Of a stretch of 34,815 nucleotides of DNA, positions 6,319 to 24,745 are shown piece after piece; position 1 is the first letter of the stretch; every line of letters begins with the position of its first letter. The position numbers and the translations under genes are program-made. The notes beneath the pieces were generated by a model. It saw nothing but the letters and a program-made list of their open reading frames with translations, ran no database searches and had not been told where the DNA came from. Source of the stretch: a virus. The stretch is taken from the IMG/VR virus record IMGVR_UViG_3300032893_000202, positions 1-34,815 of that record. One strand, given 5' to 3'.

Positions 6319-6608
6319 TGGCGCGGAACGACAAGGTCGGGGCTGGGACCGGAGCTGGAGCCGGAGCCGGACGGCGGCACGTCTGCAAGGAGGGCGGCTG
6401 CCTGGAACGCGCTGATGCCAGGTGCCAGGGCTGCGGCAACTGGTTCTGTCATAGACACCTGGAACGAGGAACCACGGTCGACTTCCGGTTCGGCGACGGA
6501 GCCGACGTCTGCATAGACTGTGCCTTCGAGCCGCCGGACCTCAGCGATGGGCTCTTGCTCTGGTCGTTGAACCCCGGTAGCGGCTCGACAGAGAAACGAG
6601 ACCGATGA
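6318..6608 (+). CDS. zinc-finger protein, 96 aa
   Basis: ATG 6318 overlaps the preceding TGA. A Gly/Ala repeat (TGAGAGAG) is followed by CKEGGC, CQGCGNWFCHRH and CIDC: eight Cys/His ligands spaced like a B-box or AN1-type two-zinc finger (residues ~23-68). Such domains usually mediate protein-protein contacts. The stop overlaps the next gene (ATGA at 6605), so translation is probably coupled to the CAP-domain protein. Confidence 0.65.
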   Translation: MARNDKVGAGTGAGAGAGRRHVCKEGGCLERADARCQGCGNWFCHRHLERGTTVDFRFGDGADVCIDCAFEPPDLSDGLLLWSLNPGSGSTEKRDR

Positions 6609-7087
6609 CCCTCTCCTCGATACTCCAGTGGCTCGAACGGGTCATCCTCGGGCCTGCTCCCACGCCTGCCCCGCCCTCACCTACGCCTCCTCCTCCTCCG
6701 CCGGCCCCGCCACAGGTCACGGCGCTCGTGGCCGCGATCAACGTCCAGCGTGCCGCCTACTCCCTGTGCCCCCTCGCCGAGTCGGGCACGCTCGACACGT
6801 TGGCCCATAGCCGATCCGAGAGCATGGCCGCGATGGGGGGGCTCTCCGATGCTGGATTCAACCTCCAGGTCGTACCGCAGCTCGCCGGCCTCTTCCCCGG
6901 CTACGCCGCCGCCGCCGAGAACGTCGCCGAGGGCCAGCCCGACGTTGCTTCCGTAATAGATGCCTGGATGAACTCACTACCGCACCGCGCGAACATTCTT
7001 GGCCCCTACAACCTGATCGGCGCCGGGATCGTGACCGATGCGTCGGGCCGGGTCTGGTGGACCAACCTTTTCGTCGCCCAGCGCTGA
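6605..7087 (+). CDS. CAP/SCP-domain protein (cysteine-rich secretory protein, antigen 5, PR-1 family)
   Basis: 160 residues: a short hydrophobic amphipathic N-terminus (~1-16), a Pro-rich hinge (~17-37), then a CAP domain. Conserved features are NVQRAAYSLCPL, LAHSRSES (His68), ENVAEG (Glu105), W..SLPHRANIL (His127) and the closing GAGIVTDASG..WWTNLF. The two His and the Glu are the CAP cavity residues. Bacterial CAP proteins are usually exported or surface-bound, with roles in binding lipids or glycans, or sometimes in proteolysis. In this position, next to a cysteine peptidase and before a membrane-protein cluster, a role in host-envelope breakdown or virion attachment is reasonable but inferred. 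Confidence 0.8.
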   Translation: MTLSSILQWLERVILGPAPTPAPPSPTPPPPPPAPPQVTALVAAINVQRAAYSLCPLAESGTLDTLAHSRSESMAAMGGLSDAGFNLQVVPQLAGLFPGYAAAAENVAEGQPDVASVIDAWMNSLPHRANILGPYNLIGAGIVTDASGRVWWTNLFVAQR

Positions 7088-7104: not shown

Positions 7105-7926
7105 ATGCCGATCAAGATCCCACCAGTCGTGCGAAGGACGAAGAGGGGCCACCGGCTCAACTGGATTCCCGACCCGAACCCCGTCCGCGAGTCGCCGCAC
7201 CATTACGCGATCCCGCCGGCGCACATCGTCGAGTCGCTACCGGCGTCTGTCGACCTCCGCCCTTTCTTCGCGAGTCACAACATATCAGTATATGACCAGG
7301 GGTCTGAGGGTTCGTGCACGGCCCATGCGTGGGCCGGCTGCGCCCAGTACCTCCGCGCCGTGGCCAAGAAGCCCAACAACTGGGTTCCGTCTCGGCAATT
7401 CATATATTGGTGTGAGCGCTTCATCGAGAACGACACGGGCACCGACGCCGGCGCGATGGTGGGCTCTGGCCAGACGGCGCTCGCGAAGTGGGGCGTCTGC
7501 CCGGAGAGCACCTGGCCCTACGTGGCCAGCGACATGCTCACGCAGCCGTCCCAGGTGGCCTACGCGCAGGCCAAGCCGCACGTCCTCAAAGGCGGGCAGC
7601 CGATCGACAACCGGAACCTGAAGGCGCTCAAGTCGGCCCTGGCGCTCCGGCTTCCGATCGTCAATGGCTTTTTGGTCTACTCCAGCTTCGAGAGCGACGC
7701 CGTCGCTCAGACGGGAATCATCCCCATGCCCGACGCCGCGACCGAGCAACTCCTCGGCGGCCACTCGACCCTTACCGTGGGCTACGACGACGCGAAGCAA
7801 TGGTTCATCTGCCGCAACTCCTGGAGTCCGGGATGGGGCGCTCAGGGATACTTCTACATGCCATATAACTACCTGACGAACGAGGCATATGCCCAGGATT
7901 TCCACCTCGGGCACTCGTTCTCGTAA
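7105..7926 (+). CDS. papain-like (C1A) cysteine peptidase
   Basis: 273 residues. The start at ATG 7105 has AGGAG at 7092-7096. Near the N-terminus is the typical PASVDLRPFF, then YDQGSEGSC with catalytic Cys71, GGHSTLTVGYDD with His220, and CRNSWSPGWGAQGYFYMP with Asn238, i.e. the Cys-His-Asn triad in the usual order and spacing. There is no long inhibitory propeptide and no signal peptide. C1A peptidases of this short type occur in many phages, giant viruses and bacteria. Possible jobs are host-envelope protein digestion at lysis or entry, or virion maturation. The neighbouring CAP protein and membrane proteins favour an envelope role; this is inference. Confidence 0.85.
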   Translation: MPIKIPPVVRRTKRGHRLNWIPDPNPVRESPHHYAIPPAHIVESLPASVDLRPFFASHNISVYDQGSEGSCTAHAWAGCAQYLRAVAKKPNNWVPSRQFIYWCERFIENDTGTDAGAMVGSGQTALAKWGVCPESTWPYVASDMLTQPSQVAYAQAKPHVLKGGQPIDNRNLKALKSALALRLPIVNGFLVYSSFESDAVAQTGIIPMPDAATEQLLGGHSTLTVGYDDAKQWFICRNSWSPGWGAQGYFYMPYNYLTNEAYAQDFHLGHSFS

Positions 7927-7988: not shown

Positions 7989-8120
7989 ATGACCCTGCCC
8001 AGGGGCATCGGCGGACGGCCAATCCTCCGGTTCGCCGCTCCGTCGGTGCCCCGCAAACCGGAGGAGAAAGGCCGTGGGGATCGCGATCTCGGCGGTGACG
8101 GTCTGCGTCGGTTGCTCTGA
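7989..8120 (+). CDS. possible small ORF, 43 aa
   Basis: ATG 7989 with GGGGAG a few bases upstream encodes an Arg/Pro-rich 43-residue peptide that ends inside the glycosyltransferase gene (other frame). Decent SD spacing is the only support. It may be a leader that couples translation to the GTG start at 8074, or nothing. Confidence 0.25.
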   Translation: MTLPRGIGGRPILRFAAPSVPRKPEEKGRGDRDLGGDGLRRLL

Positions 8121-8865
8121 TTTCCTCGAAGAAGTCGCTCGTCACAACAGGCATCTATTCAGGCAATGGATGGTCGTCACCCATCCCCGCGACGGCGACA
8201 CCCTAGAGACGTGCCGACGTAACTCGCTCGACTGCCTCCGCACCGAGGACGTCGGCCTCTACGGGCAGCCGTTCAACAAAGGCCGGGCGCTCGCCCGGGG
8301 CATCAGCCAGCTCTCGTGGCAGGACTGGCTGCTCGGAGTCGACTGCGACATCGTGCTGCCGAGGAACACCCTGAACGTGCTCGACTCGGCCGAGCTGGAG
8401 CCCGGCAAACTCTACGGCGTCGATCGGGTCTGCCTGTACTCCTGGGAACAGTGGAAGATCCTCGAAGCGTCGGACTATCTCCATCGGCAGCATGATTACC
8501 ATATCAACGTTCACCCGCCGAACATGCCGTACGGGTTCCCGCCGCTAGCCTCGCGGATCATGCGCGACGGTTTCGGCTATACGCCGCACGGGTACTTCCA
8601 GCTCTTCCACGGGTCGGACGGGCTCCACGAGGGCTGGCGGTATAAGACTAATGCCCTGGTCCCGGAGACGTGCGGCCACACCGACCAGAAGTTCGCTGAG
8701 CGTTGGGACCGGAGGAACCGGGTCCTCATCCCCGAGATCATCGCGGTCCACCTGGAGTCGGAAAGGGTCCGCTTCGGGACGAACTGGACGGGCCGCAGGA
8801 CTCGCTGGTTCGGGCCGGAAGGGTCGGAGCCGAAGACGCCGCCGACCGGGAGAGCCTACCCGTGA
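8074..8865 (+). CDS. glycosyltransferase, GT-A fold (family 2-like)
   Basis: 263 residues starting at GTG 8074 with GGAGGAG at 8059-8065. The N-terminus has a beta-strand start (ISAVTVCVG), then NKGRALARGI and DWLLGVDCDIVLP, whose Asp90-x-Asp92 is the metal/nucleotide-sugar DxD motif of GT-A enzymes. The remainder (YGVDRVCLYS, FGYTPHGYFQLFHGSDGLHEGW) is typical of phage and bacterial glycosyltransferases that act on surface glycans. It lacks a membrane segment. Its stop overlaps the sulfotransferase start (GTGA), so both are probably made together and may act on one glycan. Substrate is unknown. Confidence 0.75.
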   Translation: MGIAISAVTVCVGCSDFLEEVARHNRHLFRQWMVVTHPRDGDTLETCRRNSLDCLRTEDVGLYGQPFNKGRALARGISQLSWQDWLLGVDCDIVLPRNTLNVLDSAELEPGKLYGVDRVCLYSWEQWKILEASDYLHRQHDYHINVHPPNMPYGFPPLASRIMRDGFGYTPHGYFQLFHGSDGLHEGWRYKTNALVPETCGHTDQKFAERWDRRNRVLIPEIIAVHLESERVRFGTNWTGRRTRWFGPEGSEPKTPPTGRAYP

Positions 8866-9407
8866 AGTGCTTCGGCATCGGTCCTCCTCGCACCGGGACC
8901 AAGAGCCTAAACGAGGCCCTCTGCTGGCTCGGGATCAGGTCGGTCCACTACCCGATCGATGACCGGACGTGCCGCGAGGTCGTCTCCGGGGAGCCCTACT
9001 CGATCCTGAACACGCACGACGGCCTGACCGACCTCCACGCGATGGTTCGGTTCAAGAGCCTGGATCGCCGCCACCCGGGCAGCAAGTTCATCCTGACCGT
9101 GCGGGAGCGCGAGGCGTGGGTCAACTCGAACATGAGCTGGTTCTCCTGGATCAAGATGGAAGACATGCCGGAACCAGAACGTTCGGCGTGCGCCAGGCTG
9201 CGCGTCCAGGCGTGGGGGAGCGTTGACCTGTCTCGCGAACGTCTCCTCGCCGCTTACGACCGGCATGTCGCCGACGTCGAGAACCACTTCTGTCAGCGGC
9301 CTGCCGACTTGCTCATCATGAACGTCTTCGCTGGCGACGGCTGGAGAAAGCTATGCCCGTTCCTGGGCAAGCCGTTCCCAGCCGTGCCGTTCCCGCACCT
9401 GAAGTGA
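8862..9407 (+). CDS. sulfotransferase (PAPS-dependent, Sulfotransfer_4-like)
   Basis: 181 residues from GTG 8862, overlapping the glycosyltransferase stop. Residues 5-16 (GIGPPRTGTKSL) are the 5'-phosphosulfate-binding loop. Later FILTVRER is the typical strand before the PAPS 3'-phosphate-contacting Arg/Ser, and the C-terminus LLIMNVFAGDGWRKLCPFLG with PFPHLK is the signature of the Sulfotransfer_4/NAD-dependent-epimerase-linked family. The enzyme would move sulfate from PAPS to a hydroxyl, here most simply of a glycan built by its neighbour. The longer frame upstream of 8862 is antiparallel noise within the glycosyltransferase gene. Sulfotransferases are rarely reported in phages. Confidence 0.8.
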   Translation: MKCFGIGPPRTGTKSLNEALCWLGIRSVHYPIDDRTCREVVSGEPYSILNTHDGLTDLHAMVRFKSLDRRHPGSKFILTVREREAWVNSNMSWFSWIKMEDMPEPERSACARLRVQAWGSVDLSRERLLAAYDRHVADVENHFCQRPADLLIMNVFAGDGWRKLCPFLGKPFPAVPFPHLK

Positions 9408-12702: not shown

Positions 12703-13320
12703 ATGCCCGCAAGAATCTCACCAGAGTCCGTCGCCGAGATCATCCGGCTCAATGAGCAGGGGTTCACCCACCTGGAGATCAGGGCAAGACTCGGCATCGG
12801 CCATACCACCATCTGCAACGCGCTCAAGAAACACCACGAGCGCGTCTACGAGGCCCTCGTCGAGTCCCACGTCGCTGAGCGGGGGCGACAGCTCAAGTGG
12901 CTTCACAAGATGTTCCGCGAGTGCTGGGAAGAGTGGAACCGATCCAAGGGACAGCAGACGACCAAGAAAGTCAGTTCTGAGAAGAACCTGCTCCCAGGAA
13001 CCAAGAACCAGACGTCTACCATCGAACGGTCCGAGATCCAGATCAAGGACGGCCTGGGAAACCCCGCCTACGTCGATCGCATGAATGCTATTCTTGGAGC
13101 AATACGCGAAGTCCTCATGCTCGACAAGACCCCCAGGCGAGACGAAGAGGCCAACCCCGGGGCCGGCGACCACGACGTGACAAAAGCTCTCGAAGACCTG
13201 GAGCGCATCGAGCAGGCCATGAGGCAGAGCGGCGGACTGCCCGCGAAGCCACAGGGGCAGGGCCAGGCGAGCAGGCACGATGACGATGACGACGACGATC
13301 AGGACGACGACGACCGATGA
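12703..13320 (+). CDS. terS: terminase small subunit-like protein, 205 aa
   Basis: Starts at ATG 12703, directly after the preceding TAG. Residues ~6-45 (SPESVAEIIRLNEQGFTHLE, IRARLGIGHTTICNALKKHH) are a helix-turn-helix typical of small terminases. The central NPAYVDRMNAILGAIREVLMLD is a phrase common to phage small-terminase or terminase-associated proteins. The C-terminus is a run of Asp (about 15 in the last 20), possibly a disordered contact for the large subunit. It overlaps the large terminase by four bases. The protein would recognise the packaging start on the phage DNA. The pac/cos site cannot be located from sequence alone. Confidence 0.75.
   Translation: MPARISPESVAEIIRLNEQGFTHLEIRARLGIGHTTICNALKKHHERVYEALVESHVAERGRQLKWLHKMFRECWEEWNRSKGQQTTKKVSSEKNLLPGTKNQTSTIERSEIQIKDGLGNPAYVDRMNAILGAIREVLMLDKTPRRDEEANPGAGDHDVTKALEDLERIEQAMRQSGGLPAKPQGQGQASRHDDDDDDDQDDDDR
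12966..12977. repeat. dispersed palindrome variant
   Basis: GAAAGTCAGTTC inside the small terminase gene; half-site degenerate. Confidence 0.45.
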
Positions 13321-14858
13321 TGACCATCGGCGAACTCCGGAACGCCGTCGGACGAGAGCCGACCAAGAGCGAGAAAGTCGCGCTCCTGATCCGGTCCTGC
13401 CGCGACGATCCTGTGCGATTCAATGACGAGGTCCTCGGTCGGAGATACTACGACCCCGTTCTTCGAAAGGACCGGCCCGCGCGCTACTGGAGCGGCCAGC
13501 GCAAGGTCTGCGAGGCCGTCGTCAGGCACAAGACTGTCGTCGTCCCCACCGGACACTCGATCGGGAAGTCGTTCCTGGCCGCCGGGATCATCCTATGGTG
13601 GCTCTACACCAGGCCGCACTCGCTCGTCATCGTCACGGCGCCGAGCCAGAACCTGCTCGGCTCGGTCGTCTTCAAGGAGGTCCGCCGGGCACTCACCAAC
13701 CCGCTTATTCCGCTCGCAGGACAGGTAACTGATAGCCCCAAGGTCAGTCCTCAAACGCTCGCCGTGAACAACACCGGATGGCAGGTGATCGGGATCGCGA
13801 CCCGGGGCATGGAGCGGATCTCGGGGCAGCACACGGGCGAGCTGCTGGTCGTGGTTGACGAGGCGTCCGGCATCGACGAGGACATCTGGGAGGCGCTCGA
13901 CTCGCTCAATGCCCAGAAGACTGTCGTCTTCGGCAATCCGATCCGCGCCGAGGGCCGGTTCCGAGACCTGGACCTGAGAGCGACCCGCGAGAAGGACGAC
14001 CCGACCATCCCCGACGAGGACCGGGTCGTCTCGATCCGCATACCCTCGACCGACAGCCCTGACATCGACAAGCCTCGATCGTCGCGCGGCCTAGCCGACA
14101 AAGGGTTCCTGGACAACAACCGCCGCCAGTACGGCGAGGGGTCGCTCTGGTGGCGGTCGCGCATCCTCGCCCTGTTCCCGGACATCTCGGTCGACGCCCT
14201 GATCCCGCCCGGGTGGATCGATGCCTGCATCAGTCGCCGCCGTAAGCCGGGCGAGTTCCTGGGCCACCCGCGCATGGGCGTCGACCTCAGCGAGGGCGTC
14301 GGCAAGGACCGCTCCGTGATCGTCGTTCGCGACGACCTGGGCGTCCTGGACGTCTACTGCGACAACCTGGCCGGCCCCGAGGACGTCGCCGGCCACATCG
14401 TCCGCAAGCGGTTCCAGTGGAACGTCGCCGAGCACCGGATCTGCTACGACGTCGGCGGCGTCTACGGCAAGGACCTGGCCCGCTACCTTGAGGCCAAGGG
14501 CATCTTCGGCGCCACGCCCTACTCGGGCTCGTTCCACGGCGGCCCCGACTTCGTCAACCTGCGATCCTGCGCCGGCTGGCGGCTCCGTATGCGCCTCGAC
14601 CCAGGGACGACCCTTGACCCGGCCCCAGACCCCAAGACCGGCCGGGTCGACCCGAAGATCACCCGCGAGAAGCAAACTCAGTTTCTCATCCCGCCCGAGT
14701 CCTGGTACCCTAGCATGCGAGAGGAGATCGGGCTACTGCGCTACGAGCTGTACGGGCACCGGACCAAGCTTGAGCCCAAGGAAGACCTGATGCAGCGCCT
14801 GGGAAGATCGCCCGATCTCGGCGACGCGCTGCTCATGACGTTCGCGTACCTCGACTAG
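13317..14858 (+). CDS. terL: terminase large subunit (ATPase and nuclease)
   Basis: 513 residues. Walker A: VVVPTGHSIGKSF (~74-86). Walker B with catalytic acid: LLVVVDEAS (~175-183). Coupling-type motif FGNP near 201. RNase H-like nuclease: GVDLSEGVGKDRS (~321-333), CYDVGGVYGKDL (~373-384) and the final DLGDALLMTFAY (~500-511), with the expected Asp residues. It pumps DNA into the prohead and cuts the concatemer. The start has tandem ATGs in TGATGATG overlapping the small subunit's stop; either may be used. The gene is intact and ends with TAG, showing that TAG works as a normal stop here. Confidence 0.95.
   Translation: MMTIGELRNAVGREPTKSEKVALLIRSCRDDPVRFNDEVLGRRYYDPVLRKDRPARYWSGQRKVCEAVVRHKTVVVPTGHSIGKSFLAAGIILWWLYTRPHSLVIVTAPSQNLLGSVVFKEVRRALTNPLIPLAGQVTDSPKVSPQTLAVNNTGWQVIGIATRGMERISGQHTGELLVVVDEASGIDEDIWEALDSLNAQKTVVFGNPIRAEGRFRDLDLRATREKDDPTIPDEDRVVSIRIPSTDSPDIDKPRSSRGLADKGFLDNNRRQYGEGSLWWRSRILALFPDISVDALIPPGWIDACISRRRKPGEFLGHPRMGVDLSEGVGKDRSVIVVRDDLGVLDVYCDNLAGPEDVAGHIVRKRFQWNVAEHRICYDVGGVYGKDLARYLEAKGIFGATPYSGSFHGGPDFVNLRSCAGWRLRMRLDPGTTLDPAPDPKTGRVDPKITREKQTQFLIPPESWYPSMREEIGLLRYELYGHRTKLEPKEDLMQRLGRSPDLGDALLMTFAYLD
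14673..14685. repeat. dispersed palindrome copy (1 mismatch)
   Basis: CAAACTCAGTTTC inside the 3' part of the large terminase gene. Confidence 0.65.
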
Positions 14859-15223: not shown

Positions 15224-16918
15224 TTGAGCCGGTTCACGCGATCTATCGCGACCATCTTCTCCTCGGCGCTGGGGACACAGCTCTATCCCCGGCCCACGAA
15301 CGTAACGAACGACCTCGGCAAGATCATGGACTCGATCCGGGACGGACTCACAAACGAGTTCAACCCCAGGATCGACGACGCCATAAGAAATCAGCGATTC
15401 TACGAGGGCAAGACCGAGCAGTACATCCGTTACAGGGACGCCGAGAACGTCTGGGACCACGAGCAGAAACCTAAGCGGACGACCAATATTACTCGCCGGG
15501 CGGTCAACGCCCTCTGCGAGCACCTCTACGTCCCGGGGCCGGCCCGCCGCGTCGAGAACTCGGAGGAGGCCGACGCCTGGCTCCAGTCGGTCTACGAGGC
15601 AAACCACGTCAATGCCAAGTTCCTCCGGGCTGACCGGCTCTCGACCCTGAACGACGTCGCCATGTTCCAGGTCGCCGCCGCCGGCACGGACGCCACGCTC
15701 GACCCAAACGTCGCCGAGGCGATGGGCGACGCGCCGCTCATCATCCACGTCCGAGGGTCCGAGGAGTTCGCCGTCTGGTGCAGTCCCGAGACGCCAACCA
15801 AGCCATGGGCCGTGTGCGTGATCTCGATGTACGACGAGACCCGCCAGTTCCAGCTCTGGACGGCGACCAACATCTACACGTTCAAGACCGAGAAGCTCGG
15901 CCTGAGCCAGACGACCGGCGGCCGGGTCGCCAGGTACGTCCCGGAAGAGTCGGGCGAGAACCCGTACGGAATCCTGCCGTTCTCGTTCTTTCACTACGAG
16001 CTGCCGGTGCGGGACTTCTGGAACGACTCGCCGGGCACGGACATCGCTAACGCCAACTATCAGCTCAACATGGACATGACCGACACGGCTAACTCTGTGT
16101 CGATCTACCGAAACAAGATGATGCTGGCCTACAACGTGAGGTCCGACTGGAAACCGATCTTCACGCCTGGGTGCATCACGCACGTCCCGGGGATGCCCAA
16201 CCAGACCCAGACCGGGCTCGAACCGCGGATCGAGGCGCTCGAAGGAACGATCGACATAGGCGGCTCCTGGCAGGACATGGATGAGTACCGGAGCGTGATC
16301 TACGAGGACAACGGGATTCCCGAGGCGGCGATCCGCATGAAGCAGCAGTCGGCAGCGTCGGGCATCGCGATCCTCTCTGAGCAGGCGCCGCTCCTGACCC
16401 GTGCCCAGGCCCGGCGGTCGATGGCGATGATCTACGAGAAGGACCTGGCCCGCGTCTGCTTTGCCGTCTCGGGCGCCTACTACGACATCCCGGAGAATAC
16501 CGAGGTCGCCGCCCAGCTCCAGCTCTCGTGCACATGGTCCGAGCCCGAGATCCCGATCCCCGGTCCCGAGCGGGACCAGGCCGACGAGTGGGAGGTCGCC
16601 AACAACTACGCGTCAGAGGTCACGGTCCTGATGCGTCGGCGCGGCCTGTCCCGCGACGCGGCCAAGGCCGAGTTGGAGCAGGTCATGGAAGACAAGAAGT
16701 GGATGAACGATATGAAGAAGAAGTACGGTCTTGACCAGGCGTCGTTCTTCGGCGCGAACGGCAACGGGGAGCCGGGCAGCAACGGCCAGCCGGGCGAGGG
16801 TCGTTTCCCCGGGGCATCTCCAGGCTCCGACGAGGAGCCCGAGGCCGGCCCCGGCGCCGGCCCCGGCGCCGTCGAGCAGGACAAGAACAACGTCGCCGCC
16901 GGCGCCGCAGCCGAGTGA
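15224..16918 (+). CDS. portal protein
   Basis: 564 residues. Recognisable portal features are an N-terminal N-I-T/R-RAVNALCEHLYVPGP segment, strands such as AVCVISMYDETRQFQLWT, and ESGENPYGILPFSFFHYELP. A long helical stem/wing follows, with MKQQSAASGIAILSEQAPLL and RARRSMAMIYEKDLARV (~380-410), as in SPP1-type portals. The C-terminal ~70 residues are Gly/Pro/Glu low complexity. It forms the dodecameric DNA gate at one capsid vertex. The only early start in frame is TTG 15224, since a stop lies at 15215-15217, and no SD precedes it. Instead an exact palindrome copy (15210-15222) ends one base before the start codon. Confidence 0.85.
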   Translation: MSRFTRSIATIFSSALGTQLYPRPTNVTNDLGKIMDSIRDGLTNEFNPRIDDAIRNQRFYEGKTEQYIRYRDAENVWDHEQKPKRTTNITRRAVNALCEHLYVPGPARRVENSEEADAWLQSVYEANHVNAKFLRADRLSTLNDVAMFQVAAAGTDATLDPNVAEAMGDAPLIIHVRGSEEFAVWCSPETPTKPWAVCVISMYDETRQFQLWTATNIYTFKTEKLGLSQTTGGRVARYVPEESGENPYGILPFSFFHYELPVRDFWNDSPGTDIANANYQLNMDMTDTANSVSIYRNKMMLAYNVRSDWKPIFTPGCITHVPGMPNQTQTGLEPRIEALEGTIDIGGSWQDMDEYRSVIYEDNGIPEAAIRMKQQSAASGIAILSEQAPLLTRAQARRSMAMIYEKDLARVCFAVSGAYYDIPENTEVAAQLQLSCTWSEPEIPIPGPERDQADEWEVANNYASEVTVLMRRRGLSRDAAKAELEQVMEDKKWMNDMKKKYGLDQASFFGANGNGEPGSNGQPGEGRFPGASPGSDEEPEAGPGAGPGAVEQDKNNVAAGAAAE

Positions 16919-23803: not shown

Positions 23804-24745
23804 ATGTCAGTTGACGCCTCTAATTTCTATCAAAATCTTGTTGCCGCCTTCGGAGAGGCGAACGCAGCGGTGGTTGGACCTACCAAGATCATTGAGAGCG
23901 TCTACGTCGACTACAAGCCCGAGGAGGCCGCACTCGGCCAGACGATCAACGTCCCGCTCCCGGCACGCCTGACGTCCCAGGTCGCCGACATCGGCACCGG
24001 GTCGTTCACCCCGATCAACCCGAGCAGCACCGTCGTGGCGCTGCCGTTCACCAACCATCCCGGCATCTCGTTCGTCGTCTCGGACTTCTCGCAGTACAAC
24101 ACGCCGACCGACATCCGCAAGATGTTCCTCGATTCCTGTCTCAAGGGAATCCTGGAGTACATCAACCAGGACCTCGGCAGCCTGTTCAACTCGACGAACT
24201 TCAACGTCTACGGGTCGCCGATCGCGGGCTCCTCCAACGAGTTCACGACGGCGAACATGGTCACCGCGTTCGGCAAGCTGGCCTCGGCCAGGATTCCGGT
24301 ACGCGACTTCGGCAACTTCTTCGGGCTGTTCCACCCGCTCGTGTTCGCGAACATGACCAACGACACGACGTGGTCGGCCAACTCCCAGATCGGCTACCAG
24401 ATCGCCGGCGAGACGCGGCGCTACGGGATGCTGGGCGAGCAGTGGGGGGCACTCCTCGACTTCGACCCCGACATGCCGAACGTCACGTCGGGCTCGCCCG
24501 CCACGACGACCTACACGTCGGCGATCTTCCATCGCCACGCGGTCGCCCTGGGGATTCGGCCCCTGCCGATCCCCGACACCCCGAACGTGCTGGCGAACAA
24601 CATCATGCTCAAGGACATCGTCCCGGTCCGGGTCATGGTGGGCTACCAGCAGCAGTACGGCGGGTGGATGATCACCGTCGACGCCGGCTACGCCCGGTCC
24701 GTCATCCGGCCCGACCACGGCATCCTCGGCACCGTCTCGTTCTGA
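23804..24745 (+). CDS. major capsid protein
   Basis: 313 residues, starting at ATG 23804 with AGGAAGAG in front. The order of segments fits P22-type/HK97-fold coat proteins: N-terminal helix, YVDYKPEEAALGQTINVPLP, FTPINPSSTVVALPFTNHPG, ISFVVSDFSQYN, a spine helix with the peripheral loops, FHRHAVALGIRPLP, and a final strand GGWMITVDAGYARSV. The position behind the scaffold and ahead of a strong terminator hairpin also fits a highly expressed coat gene. It shows codon bias to C/G-ending codons throughout. No protease domain is fused. Confidence 0.85.
   Translation: MSVDASNFYQNLVAAFGEANAAVVGPTKIIESVYVDYKPEEAALGQTINVPLPARLTSQVADIGTGSFTPINPSSTVVALPFTNHPGISFVVSDFSQYNTPTDIRKMFLDSCLKGILEYINQDLGSLFNSTNFNVYGSPIAGSSNEFTTANMVTAFGKLASARIPVRDFGNFFGLFHPLVFANMTNDTTWSANSQIGYQIAGETRRYGMLGEQWGALLDFDPDMPNVTSGSPATTTYTSAIFHRHAVALGIRPLPIPDTPNVLANNIMLKDIVPVRVMVGYQQQYGGWMITVDAGYARSVIRPDHGILGTVSF

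Follow-up and report, generated by a model that had tools for sequence, protein, structure and literature searches.

A phage-borne glycosyltransferase gene overlapping a sulfotransferase gene, and a candidate role for the pair in glycan sulfation

In this work, we analyzed the IMG/VR virus record IMGVR_UViG_3300032893_000202, a 34.8-kb stretch of DNA that we call, at its full length, the window. The genes discussed here from that of a CAP-domain protein (starting at 6605) to that of the portal (ending at 16918) all lie on the plus strand. The CAP-domain protein is YkwD-like (6605-7087; PF00188, 1e-10; TIGR02909, 8e-17, below cut-off), and its gene stands just 5' of one for a papain-family (C1) protein (7105-7926; PF00112, 5.1e-20), in which the catalytic-triad Cys, His and Asn are apparently all there. 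Directly downstream of the papain-like gene come the genes of a glycosyltransferase (GT; 8074-8865) and a sulfotransferase (ST; 8862-9407), placed within this plus-strand block 5' of the genes for the terminase TerL (13317-14858; phrog_2, 1e-32) and the portal (15224-16918), a recognizable phage core gene, as is that of the major head protein (23804-24745). A sequence-only reading of this DNA had left room for the region being host sequence; the terminase, portal and head genes bear out a virus record, and the GC3 and codon preference of the GT and ST genes are the same as those of these three genes, so that host carry-over is unlikely. Towards the end of the window, 1493 codons of a plus-strand frame (30336-34815) run without a stop to the end of the record, the last gene thus being truncated by the contig end. 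ARAGORN reported a tRNA-Leu (24462-24545, minus strand) antisense within the major head protein gene, which is probably spurious.

The GT gene opens with a GTG codon preceded by a strong Shine-Dalgarno-like GGAGGAG (8054-8073, plus strand), and its 263-residue product carries a DxD motif at residues 90-92. On its own, this protein scored 19.5 bits against the Pfam profile Glyco_tranf_2_4, under the cut-off of 27.5, so that relatives and a predicted fold were needed for confirmation. Relatives were sought in IMG/VR by means of a DNA motif derived from W-x4-DxDI-x-LP, which retrieved 47 stretches, 42 of them encoding viral GT relatives with up to 40% identity and E values to 7e-53. Among these, L074 exceeds the cut-off of Glyco_tranf_2_4 (27.7 versus 27.5) and L112 and L095 exceed that of Glycos_transf_2 (27.7 and 23.9, respectively, versus 23.3). 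An alignment of 31 sequences left D84-W85, D90-x-D92, Q176, D204, H226 and N237-W238 invariant. Furthermore, the AlphaFold model of the window GT (pLDDT 85.8) matched the K4 chondroitin polymerase (K4CP; Foldseek, 1.3e-6; VIA Z 16.7 over 206 residues), and the structure search also returned GalNAc-T2, TarP and other GT-A enzymes. The sequence-only reading had proposed a GT-A glycosyltransferase from the DCD at 90-92, and the invariance of this DxD, the relatives that pass Pfam and the GT-A fold of the model all agree with it; we firmly predict that the product of 8074-8865 is a GT-A glycosyltransferase of the GT2-like clan with intact catalytic motifs. In alphaproteobacterial genomes, the window GT had no better than weak matches over part of its length, in 8 of 190. 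In another viral contig (L082, 9213-11003, minus strand), a 597-residue ORF joins a Radical SAM domain to a GT of the window type.

The ST gene, also on the plus strand, starts with GTG and has a ribosome-binding site of its own (GGGAGAG); it encodes 181 residues. A start at 8703, giving 234 residues, had been entered in the ORF list and was set aside because the GTG at 8862 is where the homologous domain sets in. The second gene had been read as a PAPS sulfotransferase with a PRTGTKSL loop, and the profile search placed it in Sulfotransfer_4 (PF17784) with an E value of 2.3e-28 and 100 bits (cut-off 22.8), residues 2-180 covering profile positions 1-209 of 215. Its motifs comprise the PAPS loop (PRTGTKSL, residues 9-16), D57, R81, S89 and GDGWRKLCPFLG (residues 158-169). 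Family membership was judged on R81 and S89, taken as the 3'-phosphate site, and on D57, taken as the acidic catalytic residue: T11, T13, D57, W86 and H135 do not vary across 42 ST sequences, R81 and S89 are at least 90% conserved, and the motif positions align with those of the solved enzymes. A PDB search with a profile of the ST and six bacterial relatives matched SgdX2 (1.3e-35), Cpz8 (1.9e-34) and schistosome SULT enzymes (1e-24 to 4e-27). The AlphaFold model (mean pLDDT 96.8) superposed on Cpz8, SgdX2 and the schistosome enzymes with TMq values of about 0.76-0.83, the value for Cpz8 with PAP being 0.82. In the schistosome sulfotransferase, the side chain of Asp91 hydrogen-bonds the accepting hydroxyl (PMC4618941); D57 aligns with this residue, its position having been counted by hand. 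Both profile and model lead us to the firm prediction of a PAPS-type sulfotransferase with a full catalytic set at 8862-9407.

The two genes share the four bases GTGA (8862-8865, plus strand), in which the start codon of the ST lies over the stop codon of the GT, and their coordinates, frames and overlap are as they had first been read. This arrangement is likely to reflect translational coupling. The exact pair is rare. Scans of IMG/VR with the single GT, ST and TerL proteins as queries gave no confirmed match, and relatives in this collection could be reached only by profile- or motif-based scans; a 7-row ST alignment held no conserved block usable for scanning. Besides, tblastn of the GT and ST against INPHARED phages found no match, and PHROGs holds no family for either protein. 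When 40 further contigs that carry a GT of the window type were examined, Sulfotransfer_4 was present in one and absent from 39, which makes the exact pair nearly unique among the contigs searched and suggests that the ST may have been acquired late. A window-type GT and Sulfotransfer_4 were thus found together in a single further contig, of 153 kb (L110/G075), in whose ST (106999-107508) an in-frame TAG separates the matches.

A scan of IMG/VR with the ST profile retrieved 41 viral loci. In 36 of them, the ST forms the C-terminal half of a single frame of 430-590 residues whose N-terminal half is a GT; three of the other five are cut by the contig end and two (L027 and L028) are free-standing. 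Pfam recognized Sulfotransfer_4 in all 34 fusion proteins submitted to it, Glyco_transf_7C in 30 and Glyco_tranf_2_2 in 25. The fusions are diverse, falling into 30 clusters at 70% identity with a median pairwise identity of 51%. A wider scan for the fusion family retrieved 72 loci, in 69 of which the matches extend over both halves (single frames were unchecked for the added loci), counts that, like the others from IMG/VR, take in related samples and contigs that may be incomplete. The phrog_2 terminase was found in 22 of the 36 records tested, the window included, and in several records it is 1.4-6 kb away from the fusion. A papain-like ORF is located within 2 kb of the fusion in 21 of the 72 loci, and a relative of the window papain-like protein (34.8%) adjoins the fusion in L059. 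When the pair was sought in other phages, what recurred was the joining of GT and ST in one protein; the exact pair of the window is not conserved. Papain-like genes also stand beside some window-type GTs (L071, L095 and L100). A different viral cassette (4099-6612 in L008 and L010; 591-3094 in L009) comprises a Sulfotransfer_1/3-type gene, a short gene like those of DegT aminotransferases, one for a small protein that has a DDDT motif and, by eye, a GT-A look, and a Sulfotransfer_4 gene; in G004, an APS-kinase-like gene lies about 3.5 kb upstream.

The viral ST closest to that of the window is the free-standing one of L027 (51% identity), which lies between portal and TerL, 9 bases from a divergent GT of 488 residues and two domains; a rescan with the window ST subfamily returned nothing beyond it. 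In the ST tree, the proteins of the window, L027 and L028 and three chromosomal proteins of Maricaulales form one clade (SH-aLRT 97), and the STs of the fusions form a separate one (SH-aLRT 93) that leaves the window ST outside. No similarity was detectable between the window GT and the GT of the fusions, and with its separate, overlapping ORFs the window pair is not a member of the fusion family. Given these differences and the rarity of the pair among contigs with this GT, the window shows the two activities of the fusions paired independently or in a rearranged form. Among cellular proteins, the nearest ST relatives that we found belong to Maricaulales (Alphaproteobacteria; Glycocaulis and Oceanicaulis), at 41-45% identity. 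Plasmid-borne bacterial relatives lie among glycosyltransferase genes, and in Jannaschia the ST overlaps a GT61 gene by 4 bases. With regard to the host, the sole hint at Planctomycetes is LECRSLLAP in a protein of L027, which we take to resemble planctomycete sorting motifs.

APS kinase supplies PAPS, the sulfate donor of sulfotransferases. Full-length APS kinases (155-206 bits) are encoded in five of the fusion contigs: in the near-identical phages L030 and L036, the kinase gene follows the fusion gene directly, with an overlap of 8 bases, and in L034, L042 and L056 it lies downstream at a distance of up to about 1 kb. The wider scan of 72 loci added a sixth full-length case (L167). PF01583 was matched in 8 of 40 records of the ST set, three of the matches being weak or partial, against two of 40 control contigs chosen for a window-type GT only, where the matches were weak (57-59 bits). 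This difference in counts is modest; stronger evidence comes from the adjacency and full length of the kinases in the ST set. Both control contigs (L091 and L076) lack an ST, and the APS-kinase-like gene is directly adjacent to the GT in L091/G080; in L098, an ORF beside a window-type GT (298-1149) looks by eye like a PAPS reductase. The window, a record that may be incomplete, has no PF01583 match, so its pair would depend on PAPS of the host.

Taken together, the repeated fusion, the gene overlap and the linkage to APS kinase suggest that the ST acts with the GT on one substrate. The best-supported mechanism, which we consider probable, is that of a two-enzyme phage module in which the ST sulfates the glycan that its partner GT builds, or the acceptor of that glycan. 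With a nucleotide sugar as donor, the GT would attach a sugar to an acceptor; the ST coupled to it would then transfer the sulfate of PAPS to a hydroxyl of the added sugar or of its immediate acceptor. The overlap may cause both proteins to be made together, as fusion would in related phages, with PAPS drawn here from the host and, in some relatives, probably made with an APS kinase of their own. The likeliest product would be a glycan that carries sulfate at a surface, either that of the host envelope or that of the virion, and the papain-like, CAP and packaging neighbors, with no replication genes among them, favor a late or surface role. The shared substrate, the order of the steps, the surface location and the biological benefit are the parts of this mechanism that we infer.

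Some observations count against such a module: there is no fusion in the window, its GT differs from that of the fusions and comes from a family that seldom carries this ST, APS-kinase-like genes, if weaker ones, also occur in two of the 40 control contigs, and the solved STs act on small molecules. The difference between the GTs and the small-molecule substrates would equally fit two independent cargo genes, a GT with its own acceptor and an ST acquired beside it for a metabolite, lipid or protein. Window-type GTs mostly occur without this ST, and the characterized ST relatives are small-molecule enzymes (activation of a drug in schistosomes, natural-product synthesis for Cpz8 and SgdX2), which keeps this alternative alive. 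We nevertheless hold it to be unlikely, since the great majority of viral loci of the ST family encode fusions with a GT, the stop and start codons of the two genes overlap in the window and the nearest viral ST relative, in L027, is also found beside a GT gene.

Modification of DNA or nucleotides, with the GT glycosylating a modified base and the ST sulfating it for protection against restriction, is less probable still. Phage nucleotide modification systems with glycosyltransferase and sulfotransferase are attributed to Iyer 2013 in PMC10829341, and an ORF just downstream of a window-type GT in L073 (4444-4773) is by eye like thymidylate synthase. However, PF00303 (thymidylate synthase/hydroxymethylase) is absent from the window and was detected in two of 30 ST-phage contigs, the neighboring genes are papain-like, CAP and packaging genes instead of replication genes, and the fold matches of the GT are GT-A enzymes acting on polysaccharides and proteins. 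That the pair is decaying or inactive and was kept by chance after transfer would agree with a combination so nearly unique among the contigs examined, but neither frame is broken, each gene has a full catalytic set and a ribosome-binding site, and their codon usage is like that of the phage core genes, all of which makes decay very improbable.

Phage glycosyltransferases are common. Sulfate alters surface charge and blocks many glycan-degrading enzymes, and could thus affect adsorption, superinfection or virion stability. Phage sulfotransferases have been listed among auxiliary genes (PMC8290583, PMC12285232), and the function of those of marine OM43 phages (Sulfotransfer_3) was called unclear (PMC10580990). 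The open-access literature that we searched gave no account of a phage GT-ST fusion or of an APS kinase linked to one, in line with the view of the sequence-only reading that this combination is not well described in phages. Of the coupled pair that it had proposed, the family assignments and the overlap stand and are joined by the fusions found elsewhere; the uses that it suggested, to mask a receptor, exclude rivals or decorate virions, are possible ones. Our results tie the ST to a GT, by fusion in dozens of contigs and by overlap in the window, and sometimes to a donor-making kinase. An annotation that had gone unexplained thereby becomes a concrete hypothesis open to testing, that of sulfated glycans made by phages. 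Since dozens of phage contigs encode a relative of this ST joined to a GT, sulfated sugars seem to have been overlooked among the products of phage infection. It is tempting to speculate, as a possibility to which we give somewhat less than even weight, that phages of many lineages carry a sulfation module, fused or overlapping and sometimes with an APS kinase, which would sulfate glycans of the envelope or virion; if so, this module would be a previously unrecognized way of changing receptor access or surface charge.

Among the systems that can be set beside the window, the phage GT-ST fusions of IMG/VR share with it the ST family, a GT-A partner and often a papain-like gene nearby; they differ in consisting of one ORF, in the Glyco_transf_7C type of their GT half and in their ST clade. 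In Maricaulales, the ST of the clade shared with the window is the C-terminal part of a protein of 475 residues, encoded next to a second sulfotransferase and an ABC transporter. Its N-terminal part, once taken for a GT on account of a DAD motif, has no Pfam or PDB match and is thus not established as a GT; that assignment was withdrawn. The OM43 phage enzymes (PMC10580990) are, like the window ST, phage-encoded PAPS sulfotransferases, whereas they belong to another Pfam family and were reported there with no coupling to a GT. For the GT, K4 chondroitin polymerase and related GT-A enzymes have the same GT-A fold with a DxD, at 11-13% identity, from which donor and acceptor are not inferable. 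Cpz8, SgdX2 and the schistosome SULT-OR agree with the window ST in profile, PAPS loop, W86, H135 and fold, at 22-28% identity, and act on small molecules; unlike them, the window ST is borne by a phage and coupled to a GT.
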